Source: an uncultured Shimia sp. | GTDB taxonomy: Bacteria; Pseudomonadota; Alphaproteobacteria; Rhodobacterales; Rhodobacteraceae | Reading direction: 5' to 3' | NCBI RefSeq assembly: GCF_913054185.1 | Contig: NZ_CAJXIV010000022.1 | Location: 1-44,983, forward strand | DNA length: 44,983 nucleotides | Shown: positions 19,727 through 25,043 of the stretch, piece by piece | Position numbering within the stretch: the first letter of the stretch is position 1 | Layout: each line of letters opens with the position of its first letter | Translations under genes and position numbers: made by a program | The notes under the pieces: generated by a model | What the model saw: the letters and a program-made list of their open reading frames with translations, nothing else | Database searches by the model: none | What the model was told of the DNA's origin: nothing

Positions 19727-20359
19727 TTAGATTTCTACCGCCTCGGCAATCGTCAAAGCGTCTTCTAGTTCAACACCGAGGTATCTGACTGTGCTGTCCA
19801 TCTTGGTGTGTCCAAGCAGGAGCTGAACAGCACGCAGATTGCCGGTCTTCCGGTAGATCTGCGCAACCTTCGTCCGCCGCATTGAATGGGTGCCGTATGC
19901 ACTCGGCTCCAGCCCGATTGATTTCACCCAATCTCGCACCAGCCGCGCATATTGCCGTGTCGAAATGTGTAGTCGTTCATGGAAGCGCCCTGGCCATAGG
20001 AATTCGGAGCCGATCATTAGCGGCTCTTCCATCCACCTCAAAATAGACTTCCGCGTTCCCTCGGTAATCTCAAAGCGGACAGGTTTCTGTGTCTTGCTTT
20101 GAATGATCGAGGCCCGCTCTTTGACCTGTCCTGCGGCGAACACATCAGCCACCTTCAATTTGACCAGATCGCACCCCCTAAGTTTGCTGTCGATGGAAAG
20201 ATTGAACAGAGCAAGGTCGCGGTGACTTTCAGCGATTTCCAGGCGCACACGGATTGCCCAGACATGCTTAGGCAAAAGCGGACGTTTCTGCCCGATAATG
20301 CGGCCTTTGTTCCAGGCAGGGCGACATGCACGAATGGCGGGTAAGTTTGGTGTTTGCAT
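19727..20359 (-). CDS. Short tyrosine recombinase/integrase
   Basis: This is a site-specific recombinase of the phage-integrase family. It shows the catalytic set: Arg in SKLRGCDLVKL, Lys in QSKTQKPV, HSMRRTK (His-x-x-Arg), His in LLGHTKMD, and the nucleophile Tyr in STVRYLG. The start at 20359 follows GGAGG by seven bases, giving about 210 residues. The open frame to 20458 is longer but lacks such a site. The protein is nearly only the catalytic domain; the usual N-terminal core-binding domain is short or absent. Such small integrases are frequent on alphaproteobacterial islands. It lies next to the HD-GHKL gene and may have moved it. Confidence 0.88.
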   Translation of the reverse strand: MQTPNLPAIRACRPAWNKGRIIGQKRPLLPKHVWAIRVRLEIAESHRDLALFNLSIDSKLRGCDLVKLKVADVFAAGQVKERASIIQSKTQKPVRFEITEGTRKSILRWMEEPLMIGSEFLWPGRFHERLHISTRQYARLVRDWVKSIGLEPSAYGTHSMRRTKVAQIYRKTGNLRAVQLLLGHTKMDSTVRYLGVELEDALTIAEAVEI

Positions 20360-20446
20360 GGTGGATCCTCCGATCCACCACTCCCTCCCACGGCGACAAC
20401 ACGATGTTGACCCAGCCACCATATCAAAGGATGCCGCACTAGATAC

Positions 20447-20498
20447 GAATGGCCGCAATGCGCAGATTGCGACATTTGCAAAGTCGTGCGAACGACCC
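20447..20498 (+). repeat. Degenerate 52-bp repeat, copy 1
   Basis: Starting GAATGGCCGCAATGCGCAG, this 52-bp stretch matches 23829-23880 at 40 of 52 positions without gaps and in the same orientation. Conserved cores are CCGCAATGCGCAG and TTTGCAAAGT. It lies in the gap between the recombinase and the HD-GHKL gene. Similar dispersed non-coding repeats occur in Rhodobacterales genomes, but the family is not named here. Confidence 0.6.
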
Positions 20499-20599
20499 TA
20501 AGCGGCAGTTCGTATCCAATAGAACCTGCCGCAGTGCAGCTTACCCGAAGCAGACATTGGTCGTTAAGCTCAGAAAATGACACTTGAAACCAAGTGCTT

Positions 20600-23566
20600 C
20601 TACTTGCCTTCAGCCCTTTTCTTTTTACTTTGCATAGCCTTGTAAGCACGGCGCTCAAATATCTCATATTTCTCGCCAAGCTTTTCTCTAAGTTGGGTTA
20701 GCAATTGGTCCACCTTGACCTTCGAGTTTGGTAGGTAAGGAACACCAACAAGCTCAATCCATCGGTCAAAGACGACCACATCACGGTTCTTCTTTGGTGG
20801 CTGTTTATAATTAGATAGTTCATGGAAGCCGATCACCGAAGTATCGCTGCCGTCTTTCTTGAGTGTCTTCCGCCAATTATGGACGGCTTCAGGCTCCGAT
20901 AGGCGGGTCCCACGCTGAATCATCCAGCCGTCCACCACATCCTTTTCAAGTCCATCCAAGAGCTTGGTTGCGGATTGCCCCGGCTTCATCTTCGATTTTA
21001 TCAAGTCGACGAAAGAGGATGGAATAAAGACATTCAATGCAGTTGTCGATTGTGAGATGAACTCGATTGCTTGACCTTGAAGCGTTCTGGTTAGTTTGCC
21101 TTTCATGGTGAATTTTCGTCCTGAAAACTCGTCGTTTGCGTCATGTGCCAGCAAAGATTTGGCAGGCAGACCAACTATTAGCTGATCGAGAGTCGATGCA
21201 TCATCCCGTCCACCATAACGCATCAGTGCATACCTCGGAGTGTAGCAATTCAAAAAGTGCGCGTTATTCAAGATTACACCATCTGAGCAACGGAGCCACA
21301 CGTGCTTCCGGCGGTCGTAGGACGGCCCAAGATTTTGGCCCCGATACCTCGGAAATACAAGCTCTCGGTCTTCTGACATTTGCCAAAGACAGGAAAAAAC
21401 AAACTCGTCCGTGATGTCTGCCAGAATCTCATCGGCAAACGAAAGCTCCTTTGAGGCATAAGAGTTTCGTTGTAAATTCAAGGGAAACGAGCCGGAATTG
21501 TCGCCAATCGAAAGCGACGGGAGATTAAAAATGCTTGAACTGAATGACCGCTCGATATTGTGCGGACCGAAGCGTTCCTCATTACTTCCAGATACACGTA
21601 TTTGGTTTACTGCCAAATCCGGCGCATGGGCTTCATAAGACCAGTTCACTTCGAAATTTTCGGTTTCGAAGTAGTTCCACGGGTCTTCGTATCTGTTGGA
21701 CTTGGACGGCAGGTAGCACTTTTCATCCCACGGAATTTCTTTGCCGTCCTCTGTGTAAACAAGTTTCGGGTATCTACCAAAATATTGGCTGATAGGTTGA
21801 TGTGAACTAACCTCTTTGCTGTACCTACTAGGTAGAAGTTTCCCTACTTGTGTTTGCAAGCGCTCCGGCACTTCGATTTGAATTTTGGTTCCCACTTCGC
21901 AATCGTGCCGAAGGACGTTGATTGCTCCGGTCTCAATACCCGCTGAAAACTTCAAACCTCTTGTCGTCGGTTCTGAATAATGGCGAGTTTCAACGGTAAT
22001 CTTGTCGCCAAGCAAGAATGCTGCAAGTGCTCCTACGCCAAACCTGCCGCTCCTCTGAACTGTCTTTAGTCCGTCAGGTCTTTCGAATTTTTCCTTCCAT
22101 GCGTCAGAGCTTCTAAACGATGCACCCGCCATCAAAAAATAATTCTTGATGATATCTTGCGTCATACCGACGCCACGATCAATGACCACGATTTTCGTTA
22201 CTCTAGTCCACGCCCCACTTTGTTGGTCGTTAGACAGTTCGAAGTCGATTTGCACATCTCCGATGACATCTGCGCGACGCTTGGGTTCATCAATCGAGCC
22301 ATCTAAAACGAGCTGGTCCAGCTCTTTCACTGCGTCGGTGGCGTTCTGCACTAACTCACGCAGGCCAACAGAAATGTCATTTGAGTACAATGGTCCAACG
22401 AGGAGCTTGAGGAGTTCACTGCCCGACGTTTCAAAAGCAATGCGTTCCGGAATGTAATTTATGGTCTTTGCAAAACCTTCCGCGTCGTCGATATTTGATT
22501 TTATCCTACGAATGTGTAGGCCCAGTTTATTTAGGCCACTATGAGAGTGCAGCCCATAAACTTCACCTAGAATAGCCCAAGTGATGTCCAATTCCCTCTG
22601 CAAGTCTTCAACCCAGTACTTTAACCTCAAGAATGTCGCGACGTCTTCTGGTTGAGCCGTGATGTCAATTGCTTCGGGATCGGTCAGATTTGTGATGTCA
22701 GAGACGCACTGATGCACAGACCATTCCCGAGTTGAGATGGGGCTGTTGAATTTCGAGACTTGTGTGCGGGCCGCAGGTGCCCTTTCACTTTGGATTTGAA
22801 GGTAGTCTGCAATCCGCAAGAGCGACATCAAGTAAATTGGGTGGGCTGAGCGCGTTTCAATCTTATTGTTATACTTACTTTCAAGGTAAGAAAATGTCTG
22901 ACGAAGTCCCATGCCGTGGCTACGCGCAACCAAACCTCCGATGTCTGATAGAAACTTCTCGTAGTCGGTGTCTGTTTGGCAGAGTCGCACAACTGAACCA
23001 TCGATTGAAGGCAGGCCTTGCAGTGCAATTTCGTGAGCCAATCTCGGGTGGTGTCGACGAAGGAACTCTCCCACCAGTAGAATGTCAAACTCATCCCACG
23101 GATCATCAAACGAAGGAAATGTCGTTACTGGCTTGTAGTTGGTACCGAATAAGGACTCGAGTTTGTTCGCATCAAACCGGCGTGCCTCAGCCAAGAAAGA
23201 GACCCACAACTCGTTCCATGGCCGGTCGCCGAACCCTTCTATCGGTCTGAGCGGGCCGTCTGCCGATATGAGCGTGCAAAAACCGTCCTTTGTGAGATGC
23301 ATCCCAAGATCATGAAGCATGACGGAGGTTGTAAGAAGTGCGAAGTCGACGTCAGACATCAATTCGCGTGATTTCTCCGTTGCAAGATCGACTGCGGTTT
23401 CAAGAACCGCCTCAAAATGGGTGATGTCGTGATCCGTATATTCTGGAAAGAAGATCATTTTGTTCGAGGTAATATGCTTCGAAATTTTCGACACAGCACC
23501 TTTGACGTAGGCATCCAATTCTTGGTTGTCTTTAATCCGCTCAAGTACGACTTCGGTAATCTTCAT
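20600..23566 (-). CDS. HD-domain / GHKL (Hsp90-like) ATPase fusion protein, candidate defence protein
   Basis: This is a 988-residue soluble protein with no named family that I can assign. The N-terminal part (about 40-260) looks like an HD phosphohydrolase-type domain: H50 in DHDITHFEAV, the H85-D86 pair in MLHDLGMH, further histidines at 172-173 and 178, and D254 in RIADYL. The middle (about 385-570) is a GHKL/Hsp90-like ATPase: N-box LRELVQNATDAV (E404, N408, D411), G1-box VIDRGVGM (D463-M468), and G2-box SGRFGVGALAAF (506-517). The last 400 residues are not recognised. The gene stands alone on the minus strand between a recombinase and an IS110 transposase. Its codon use and base composition appear more AT-rich than the flanking operons, which suggests transfer. 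Confidence 0.85.
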   Translation of the reverse strand: MKITEVVLERIKDNQELDAYVKGAVSKISKHITSNKMIFFPEYTDHDITHFEAVLETAVDLATEKSRELMSDVDFALLTTSVMLHDLGMHLTKDGFCTLISADGPLRPIEGFGDRPWNELWVSFLAEARRFDANKLESLFGTNYKPVTTFPSFDDPWDEFDILLVGEFLRRHHPRLAHEIALQGLPSIDGSVVRLCQTDTDYEKFLSDIGGLVARSHGMGLRQTFSYLESKYNNKIETRSAHPIYLMSLLRIADYLQIQSERAPAARTQVSKFNSPISTREWSVHQCVSDITNLTDPEAIDITAQPEDVATFLRLKYWVEDLQRELDITWAILGEVYGLHSHSGLNKLGLHIRRIKSNIDDAEGFAKTINYIPERIAFETSGSELLKLLVGPLYSNDISVGLRELVQNATDAVKELDQLVLDGSIDEPKRRADVIGDVQIDFELSNDQQSGAWTRVTKIVVIDRGVGMTQDIIKNYFLMAGASFRSSDAWKEKFERPDGLKTVQRSGRFGVGALAAFLLGDKITVETRHYSEPTTRGLKFSAGIETGAINVLRHDCEVGTKIQIEVPERLQTQVGKLLPSRYSKEVSSHQPISQYFGRYPKLVYTEDGKEIPWDEKCYLPSKSNRYEDPWNYFETENFEVNWSYEAHAPDLAVNQIRVSGSNEERFGPHNIERSFSSSIFNLPSLSIGDNSGSFPLNLQRNSYASKELSFADEILADITDEFVFSCLWQMSEDRELVFPRYRGQNLGPSYDRRKHVWLRCSDGVILNNAHFLNCYTPRYALMRYGGRDDASTLDQLIVGLPAKSLLAHDANDEFSGRKFTMKGKLTRTLQGQAIEFISQSTTALNVFIPSSFVDLIKSKMKPGQSATKLLDGLEKDVVDGWMIQRGTRLSEPEAVHNWRKTLKKDGSDTSVIGFHELSNYKQPPKKNRDVVVFDRWIELVGVPYLPNSKVKVDQLLTQLREKLGEKYEIFERRAYKAMQSKKKRAEGK

Positions 23567-24002
23567 TCTGCTCTTCTTAATTACTCACGTTATGGGCGAA
23601 CTATGACAAATTGTTCACAAGAAAACCAGTTCGTTCACGCGATTGGAATTGAAACGTCTGCCGGTCAACTTGTAGCGAACGGCAGCTCTCCGGCATAGAC
23701 GTCTACTGTTTTTTGGCTACAGCAAAAGTCCGCTCTCCGCACGATGTGTGGAACGTCCACGTCAGCTAAGGGCTGCCTGCAGTCATCCGACAGTTTCCTT
23801 CAGCCTAACCCCGCTGGCAGGGTGGATCGAATGACCGCAATGCGCAGGAAGCGGAGTTTGCAAAGTTTCGCGAGCGGCCCAGAGCTGACATTCACATGCC
23901 TCAAAGCGAATGACATGGTGTGTTTGCGGTTGTCGCTCTCCTCGGGCGAACGAGGTCCAGTATACTGGCCTCACAAATCTTAAGCCGTAGAGGAGAACGA
24001 CC
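23567..24002. other. Non-coding region upstream of the IS110 transposase
   Basis: No protein gene is supported. This region holds the promoter side of the HD-GHKL gene, copy 2 of the 52-bp repeat (23829-23880) and, in its right part (about 23910-24002), the left end and promoter of the IS110 element. A good ribosome binding site (GAGGAG) precedes the transposase start. The exact left end of the insertion sequence cannot be placed because IS110 elements lack long terminal inverted repeats. Confidence 0.5.
23829..23880 (+). repeat. Degenerate 52-bp repeat, copy 2
   Basis: This copy begins GAATGACCGCAATGCGCAG and aligns without gaps to 20447-20498 with 12 mismatches. Both copies are on the plus strand, 3.4 kb apart, and bracket the HD-GHKL gene. 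They may be traces of recombination or members of a dispersed intergenic repeat family. Confidence 0.6.
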
Positions 24003-25043
24003 ATGTCATATTATGTAGGACTCGATGTGTCCGTCAAATCCGTTTCGATCTGTGTTGTTGAGGCGGATGGTGCTGTTGTCGCACGCGGTGAAGTCTCGTC
24101 TGATCCGGATCAGATTGCCGCCTTTTTGTTCAGGCATGCGCCCGATGCTGAACGTGTTGTCCACGAGAGCGGCATTCTGTCGATCTGGCTGACCCGCGAA
24201 CTGGAGAAGCGGGGCCTCCCGATAATCTGTATTGATGCACGGCTGGCGCATAAAGCCCTGTCAGGCCGTCTTAACAAGTCTGATCGGGGGGATGCCGAAG
24301 GCTTAGCGCATCTCGCGCGAACTGGGTGGTTCACCCGGGTTCACATCCGCAGTGAGACGTCAGAACGCATTCGTGTCCTGATCGGCACACGTGAACGCTT
24401 GATCAAGATGCGCAAAGATTTAGAAGGACATGTCCGTGGGGTGTTGAAAGTTTTTGGGATCTGCATGTCAGGCGTGCATCGCTCCAAAATGCGGCAAGCC
24501 TTCCGTGATCAACTTACCGAGGCGGGTACTACCGACCCTGCCATCGGTGTGATGGTGGACATGTTTAACCCAATCCATCTGGCGCTTTGCTCTGCAGCCG
24601 ACGCAATGGACGTTGAGCTTAGGGCCATCGCGCGAGGAAGCGATCTTGCTGTGCGCCTCATGACAGTTCCGGGTGTCGGCCCTATCGTCGCTCTTGCCTA
24701 CATCGCAACACTGGATGATGCAGCAAGGTTCAAAAAGTCAAAAGATGTCGGCGCATTCCTGGGCCTCACACCGCGACGCTATCAATCTGGCGAAATGGAT
24801 TGGTCAGGGCGCATTTCAAAATGCGGAGATCGTGATCTGCGACGATTGCTGTACTCGGCGGCCACAACTTTGATCACACAAGTCAAAAAGCCATCACCTT
24901 TGCTGACATGGGCTACGCGCCTGAACGAGCGAAAAGGCTTAAAAAAGGCCGCTGTCGCAGCCGCAAGGAAGATTGCAGTTATCATGCACTGCATCTGGCG
25001 CAATGACGCTGTTTTTGACCCAAGCATGGAGGGCGTAGCTTAA
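24003..25043 (+). CDS. IS110-family transposase (DEDD recombinase)
   Basis: This recombinase combines an N-terminal RuvC-like DEDD domain with a C-terminal Transposase_20 domain that holds a catalytic serine. Visible are D8 (GLDVS), E55 (VVHESG), D94 and D97 (SDRGDAEGL), the helix-hairpin-helix TVPGVGPIVA (221-230), and S262 in RRYQSGE, followed by ISKCGDRDLRRLL. The 346-residue length is complete, and no frameshift or stop is seen, so the element may be active. Members of this family use a structured bridge RNA encoded in a non-coding end of the element to pair target and donor DNA. The start has GAGGAG nearby. Confidence 0.95.
   Translation: MSYYVGLDVSVKSVSICVVEADGAVVARGEVSSDPDQIAAFLFRHAPDAERVVHESGILSIWLTRELEKRGLPIICIDARLAHKALSGRLNKSDRGDAEGLAHLARTGWFTRVHIRSETSERIRVLIGTRERLIKMRKDLEGHVRGVLKVFGICMSGVHRSKMRQAFRDQLTEAGTTDPAIGVMVDMFNPIHLALCSAADAMDVELRAIARGSDLAVRLMTVPGVGPIVALAYIATLDDAARFKKSKDVGAFLGLTPRRYQSGEMDWSGRISKCGDRDLRRLLYSAATTLITQVKKPSPLLTWATRLNERKGLKKAAVAAARKIAVIMHCIWRNDAVFDPSMEGVA

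Follow-up and report, generated by a model that had tools for sequence, protein, structure and literature searches.

The DNA considered here, a stretch of 44,983 nucleotides from an uncultured Shimia sp. (contig NZ_CAJXIV010000022.1) hereafter called the window, encodes a 988-residue protein on its minus strand (20600..23566, ATG start) in which an HD-CE domain is fused to an Hsp90-type ATPase. The fusion gene is intact and mobile, it belongs as a one-gene system to an immune class that has been predicted, and its family is large and modular. With a probability of about 0.72 we read it as a one-gene immune-type effector in which an Hsp90 switch gates a nucleotide-degrading HD-CE domain. This reading builds on the identified domains with their intact catalytic residues, on family-wide conservation and module exchange, and on mobility and the defence genes next to relatives.

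From these observations we infer a switch mechanism, a cue, a substrate and an anti-phage activity for the fusion protein. The HD-CE domain would be a metal-dependent phosphohydrolase, held off at rest by the Hsp90-type N-terminal and middle domains acting as an ATP-driven conformational switch. A cue from a phage or another invader would be met by the variable C-terminal region, either by itself or together with the switch, and the HD domain would thereby be turned on. Once released, this domain would degrade a nucleotide pool or a nucleotide signal, and either the phage would be starved or growth of the infected cell would be halted.

Domain architecture and predicted structure

An initial annotation, made from the letters and the translated open reading frames (ORFs), had described an HD phosphohydrolase-like domain, an Hsp90-like ATPase with intact N, G1 and G2 boxes, and 400 unrecognised C-terminal residues. 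Both enzymatic parts are borne out. Residues 40–327 (22586..23449, minus strand like all parts of the gene) match the HD-CE family PF24391 over profile positions 1–262 of 263 (Pfam, 7.3e-39, 134.5 bits, cut-off 27). H85/D86 are present, and the presumed HD metal site, judged from conserved residues, comprises H46, H50, H85, D86, H173, H217 and D254. Modelled alone, the HD part reached a predicted local distance difference test (pLDDT) score of 92.3. The Hsp90-type GHKL ATPase domain, delimited approximately from profiles, conservation and Foldseek, spans residues ~374–600 (21767..22447), with a Pfam HATPase_c_3 match at residues 402–551 (5e-9) and with the N (E404, N408, D411), G1 (D463, G465, G467) and G2 (G507–G512) boxes all intact. 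Its closest matches are HtpG, endoplasmin and TRAP1. The NCBIfam HtpG equivalog gave a partial match, confined to residues 376–569, of 65.2 bits against a cut-off of 371.

The claim of an unrecognised C-terminus, on the other hand, holds for part of those residues. A Foldseek search with the model of the full protein (mean pLDDT 69.9, predicted template modelling score 0.54) retrieved Hsp90, TRAP1 and HtpG at ~2e-12, mostly over 385–425 columns at a root-mean-square deviation (rmsd) of 6–7 Å. Judged from this model, the N-terminal and middle domains of Hsp90 probably explain part of the C-terminal 400 residues; this part is thereby recognised as a likely middle domain of the Hsp90 type, whose arginine is open to experiment. 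The middle-domain-like region (residues ~601–775, limits approximate, 21242..21766) is assigned from the Foldseek match and from R700 (codon 21467–21469, minus strand) in the motif PLNLQR. We take R700 to be the equivalent of the catalytic arginine of the Hsp90 middle domain, carried in such a motif. In a profile of the C-terminal halves R700 was in register with HtpG, that segment alone being not significant. What remains of the earlier description is the region of residues 776–988 (20603..21241), which is variable, poorly conserved and modelled with low confidence: pLDDT fell below 50 at 781–849, 861–870 and 872–926, followed by confidently predicted helices at 929–940 and 949–987; these were the features seen when the region was examined for the C-terminal dimerisation domain of Hsp90.

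Conservation of the active sites

Relatives were collected from the genome_contigs set with ten aligned relatives as query, the N box as pattern and support by tblastn, the HD residues not being selected for. At least 592 pattern matches were obtained, at least 412 of them with tblastn support; 79 loci were kept, and statements on genome relatives refer to these. Scanning the viral_contigs set with the relatives gave 21 loci, and a second scan of that set with C-terminal halves gave 5, among which L210 was new in the close clade of the window protein. The sources of the relatives include Pseudomonadota, Bacillota, Bacteroidota, Actinomycetota, Planctomycetota, Cyanobacteriota and Methanosarcinales, among others.

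The resulting 106-row alignment comprised ORFs of >=650 aa, shorter ones being omitted (e.g. L061, L068, L113 and L139, also L031 and L048). The seven HD residues were retained almost throughout (H46 in 102 rows, H50 in 103, H85 in 102, D86 in 103, H173 and H217 in 104, D254 in 105) and were invariant in the 35-row alignment A3. The rows without them either lack the region (L070, L085, L131) or have lost all seven residues (L071). D47 was poorly kept (78/106 rows). On the ATPase side, E404, N408, D411, D463, G467, G510 and G512 were found in 106/106 rows and G465 in 105, and R700 was likewise present in all 106.

Exchange of modules

The best functional evidence comes from swapped modules. In L071, a planctomycetotal member of the window's own clade, all seven HD residues are lost and the N-terminus is a TIR domain (PF13676, 1.4e-14). 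Its genome (G940) was the sole one of the 32 genomes behind the fetched loci without a PF24391 match. When 294 Planctomycetota genomes were queried with the C-terminal module of the clade, the 18 matches consisted of L071, 15 HtpG-sized ORFs (619–731 aa), L228/L233, and L231, the last with an ordinary HD-CE domain. L233 carries caspase-like motifs (GHG and DSCHS, by eye) and only a trace of resemblance to HD, which scored 8.4 bits in the partial L228. Its residues of the ATPase site can be aligned, and its R700 column holds S with an arginine nearby. L056 matches iHD-CE (8.4e-27) and two stretches of PF24410 in Pfam, and in both L056 and L054 the N-terminal region resembles by eye a PD-(D/E)XK nuclease, i.e. 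is restriction-endonuclease-like (REase-like), with H46 and H173 still histidine and the H50, H85, D86, H217 and D254 columns altered. In the opposite direction, the full set of seven HD residues is found on proteins with a P-loop and repeats (L053, L055) and on a WD40-like protein (L052), as judged by eye. Since the exchanges run in both directions, the HD domain appears to be the effector and the Hsp90 part the switch. The exchange of HD for TIR inside one clade also offers a clean handle on which half senses and which kills.

A more general reading is that Hsp90 serves as an immune switch in the manner of the STAND NTPases, one chassis of N-terminal and middle domains, with ATPase machinery and arginine kept, driving exchangeable N-terminal effectors; we would give this even odds. 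The effectors would comprise the HD nucleotide hydrolase, TIR, caspase-like and REase-like modules, and the window gene would represent the HD form in a clade that displays the TIR exchange directly. If this is true, the ATP cycle of Hsp90 gates suicide enzymes here instead of protein folding.

The same exchanges bear on the main rival explanation, namely that the HD domain is a specific phosphodiesterase which hydrolyses one signalling or modified nucleotide and serves as a regulator or damper and not as a pool-depleting killer. The set of HD residues and the weak matches lean towards class I phosphodiesterases as well as towards VC1979 and SAMHD1: the HD model drew weak HD-type matches to TbrPDEB2 (probability 0.77), TbrPDEB1, PDE4D, VC1979 (E 0.57) and SAMHD1 (E 0.77), and PDE5 and PDE9 were among the profile matches of the HD part. 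However, all of these fold matches are weak, with unrelated helical proteins (FPPS) mixed among the top ranks. In the profile comparison the first motif region alone matched HD proteins (best yedJ, 1.6e-5). The modules with which the HD domain is exchanged (TIR, caspase-like, REase-like) are moreover all effector types, which argues for an effector, and we regard the specific phosphodiesterase as unlikely.

As a separate observation on the HD-CE domain, the PADLOC profile RT_UG24, a defence reverse transcriptase, matched HD-CE regions of relatives with its positions ~697–908 (best 1.5e-16; L028 9878–12787, L073 9872–12925, L046 8923–12054), a sequence match which suggests the presence of an HD-CE domain in UG24 reverse transcriptases.

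Distribution and mobility

The family is widespread yet patchy. Among 198 genomes of the same taxonomic family the full-length protein was found in one, the window's own, and the 12 other matches covered the ATPase part only (eleven in ORFs of 621–656 aa, one in an ORF of 212 aa). HD-CE above cut-off was found in 4/385 genomes of the class and 16/398 of the phylum, the own genome counted, and in none of 14 named control genomes. The homologues are thus not uniformly core genes outside islands. The same genus provides a 446-aa HD-CE relative (L031, genome G219), and the closest relative among those collected is that of Leisingera (L059). In a quick tree of the 106 proteins the window protein falls in a clade of 12–13 rows from five phyla (Shimodaira–Hasegawa-like approximate likelihood ratio test support 95 and 99). 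Phylum labels change 33 times over the tree for 12 groups (minimum 11; shuffled mean 45.8), so that phyla are mixed but not random, and paralogy may explain part of the mixing. In Clostridium uliginosum three diverged HD-CE/Hsp90 genes stand in tandem (L133 2254–13753; 809, 874 and 1298 aa) and fall in separate parts of the tree.

Carriage on mobile DNA was seen for relatives on plasmids of Zymomonas, Pantoea, Lachnospira and Hymenobacter, and the gene content around L066, L138, L139, L140 and L210 is of phage type by eye. With the window protein alone as query, viral_contigs gave no relative, and no record in the plasmid and phage collections covered 80% of it, the matches being mostly HtpG; the plasmid search did retrieve one distant relative, that on the Hymenobacter plasmid. 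L059 had no match among the plasmids and L210 none in the phage collection, and two relatives had no E. coli match.

Defence genes near relatives

The neighbour comparison used 20 of the 79 genome loci, selected because their contigs are long. At each locus the six ORFs of >=120 aa closest to the gene served as cases and six ORFs >= ~45 kb off on the same contig as controls; ORFs <120 aa were ignored. At 1e-12, PADLOC returned 203 families in 120 case ORFs against 7 in 120 controls, a count of families and not of proteins, with many models per protein. Among the 25 families listed, the cases held HamB, the retron III-A reverse transcriptase and PRTase, LmuB (4 members), MzaE and MTase_II. In Pfam, the case ORFs matched AAA_13, AAA_15, resolvases, Schlafen helicase, GmrSD, AIPR and methylase families, and the control ORFs mainly those of transport and regulation.

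Among the plasmid-borne relatives, the Zymomonas gene is followed by a TIR-NLR match, the Pantoea gene lies near an AAA ATPase and UvrD-annotated pair with a recombinase beside it, the Lachnospira gene lies near an Abi family protein, and the Hymenobacter gene is flanked by recombinases with AbiEii close by.

Two further neighbours of relatives were recorded. The clade members L066 (9437–9937) and L062 (8562–9104) have a small membrane-protein-like upstream gene, similar by eye, for which the window gene has no counterpart. Near L059, with an integrase-like gene in between, lies a 517-aa protein (1355–2908) with a nucleotidyltransferase-like motif by eye and no strong match in PADLOC.

Weighing the explanations

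Several results weigh against reading the gene as an immune effector under an Hsp90 switch. Model quality is modest for the full protein, with the rmsd to Hsp90 mostly at 6–7 Å, and the HD model had no match in the PDB at E <= 0.001. PADLOC gave only weak matches to the window protein itself (best 0.0078), nothing convincing, and among ten flanking window proteins NCBIfam returned no defence name (PADLOC was not run on these). Conservation of the N box is partly by construction, because this box was the scan pattern. The TIR exchange is seen in a single protein, L071, and the 294 Planctomycetota genomes held no second TIR version. In the neighbour comparison mad3 was equally frequent in controls (4 against 5), SMC_N and AAA_21 were also found in controls (2 ORFs each), and metabolic genes occurred among the case ORFs too. 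Furthermore, L063 and L066 are the only members of the window's clade among the 20 case loci, so that the comparison tells more about the family than about the clade; nine neighbours of clade members, scanned singly with PADLOC, gave one strong match (PDC-M36A, 2.4e-22, near L060).

With these points included, the immune reading keeps the probability given above. The initial annotation had likewise proposed a single-gene defence system that senses through the ATPase and acts on nucleotides through the HD domain. A single-gene protein of defence type, with the ATPase as regulator and the HD domain as the acting part, is supported by the module exchange, the defence genes next to relatives, and carriage on viral contigs and plasmids. 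The further suggestion that such a system was undescribed is not supported, as set out below.

Alternatively, the gene could be toxin-like, an addiction gene which serves the stability of a mobile element and not defence. It is a lone gene adjoining a recombinase and dispersed repeats, and the plasmids of Hymenobacter and Pantoea likewise carry recombinases next to the gene. An antitoxin partner ORF is, however, not evident beside it, its large multidomain switch architecture, the run of diverged paralogues in L133 and the defence genes near relatives all speak against addiction, and we consider this explanation improbable. Least probable is a paralogue of Hsp90 that carries HD as an accessory domain, acting in proteostasis or general stress with no link to immunity, to which the proximity of the ATPase part to HtpG, endoplasmin and TRAP1 would point, but which the HtpG score of 65.2 of 371 bits, the patchy distribution, the defence-rich neighbours of relatives and the module exchange make very doubtful.

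Relation to known systems

Nicastro, Burroughs, Iyer and Aravind (doi 10.1093/nar/gkad879) reportedly predicted in 2023 nucleotide-targeting HD-CE effectors coupled to HSP90-like modules, the latter as STAND analogues, and HD-CE is a named Pfam family; the combination was thus not new. The Pfam names HD-CE, iHD-CE and wHTH-HSP90_Na-assoc presumably stem from that work. With the predicted effectors the window protein shares the same PF24391 domain and an HSP90-type ATPase partner, and it represents one more member, from a small clade. As such, the gene offers a small, one-gene system in which the predicted role of Hsp90-like ATPases as immune switches can be put to the test.

Tiamat (TmtA in PADLOC) is also a large GHKL ATPase protein and to that extent similar to the window protein. 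This candidate was discarded, the window protein having drawn no hit to TmtA at E <= 1; the relative L029 matches TmtA via residues 391–494 only, at positions 47–133 of 1655. An HtpG paralogue was rejected on the score far below the equivalog cut-off. HtpG and Hsp90 chaperones share with the window protein the N, G1 and G2 boxes and the middle-domain-like region with its arginine motif, whereas the N-terminal HD enzyme, the divergent C-terminus, the patchiness and the sub-threshold HtpG score set the window protein apart. A restriction enzyme was likewise rejected, the weak PADLOC, NCBIfam and PHROGs matches all lying on the ATPase part. With STAND-type immune NTPases (Avs, TIR-NLR) the logic of effector, NTPase switch and variable sensor is probably shared, but the NTPase is of the P-loop type there and of the Hsp90 type in the window protein; intact HD residues are also seen on the P-loop proteins L053 and L055.

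Nicastro et al. 2023 is cited in PMC12839542 and PMC12265719. The latter describes Clover, a defence system with a deoxynucleoside triphosphohydrolase (dNTPase), CloA, an HD phosphohydrolase aimed at nucleotides. Clover CloA, other defence dNTPases and SAMHD1 are HD phosphohydrolases acting on nucleotides but belong to another HD family than the window protein, which has no significant fold or profile match to defence dNTPases or SAMHD1. Identity as a dNTPase of the SAMHD1/dGTPase type was accordingly set aside, VC1979 (E 0.57) and SAMHD1 (E 0.77) not being significant fold matches. A figure legend in PMC13092281 places a HATPase domain among predicted systems. The HD-CE/Hsp90 fusion is absent from the available parts of PMC3710099, PMC10732058, PMC13092281, PMC7159879 and PMC8195603, and a literature search by name and domain, whose coverage excluded most subscription papers, found no paper on the fusion and no experimental test.

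Surroundings of the gene

The fusion gene lies alone between a tyrosine recombinase ORF (19727–20458, minus strand, 243 aa, PF00589 2.1e-15) and an IS110 transposase (24003–25043, plus strand), as the initial annotation had placed it. Its account of DNA unlike the flanks also stands: the four 1-kb bins of 20001–24000 have a G+C content of 0.467–0.508 and the remaining bins of the window 0.495–0.584, a real but modest contrast, with two distant bins (34001, 0.507; 41001, 0.495) reaching the upper end of the gene region.

Searching 25 genomes of the genus revealed the right flank of the window in three others (G982, G983, G984). The IS110 element, named from NCBIfam and this comparison, is an insertion at 23915 to ~25276, because the corresponding site is empty in all three of these relatives. 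In the 20 kb examined at that flank none of the three gave a DNA-level match to the HD-CE gene. The recombinase is present there in G982 and G983, in reversed orientation, and not in G984. The left flank in G983, on a separate contig from the right flank, runs straight into a 75%-identical recombinase copy, and in G985 it is followed by an 88%-identical copy after ~600 bases. As recombinase copies adjoin homologues of both flanks, the window may be a junction of two sites, each with a recombinase copy. The tyrosine recombinase is multicopy in the genus, with matches in 19 of the 25 genomes, some solely via the repeat at its end, and with four near-full-length copies in G983.

The NCBIfam search of the ten flanking window proteins left two without a family, the others being transport- or metabolism-like: UgpA/MalG-type permeases, a UgpC-type ATPase, UrtC, a ChaA-type antiporter, an MFS transporter, a glucosylglycerate-hydrolase-like protein (below its cut-off) and a partial metallohydrolase match.

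A search for terminal repeats of the island gave only a dispersed genus repeat of ~50 bp, with one copy left of the gene (20446–20498, strand not assigned) and a second, 77% identical and in the same direction, to its right (23828–23880). This repeat, with a core resembling TTTGCAAAGT, occurs at many sites across the genomes of the genus.

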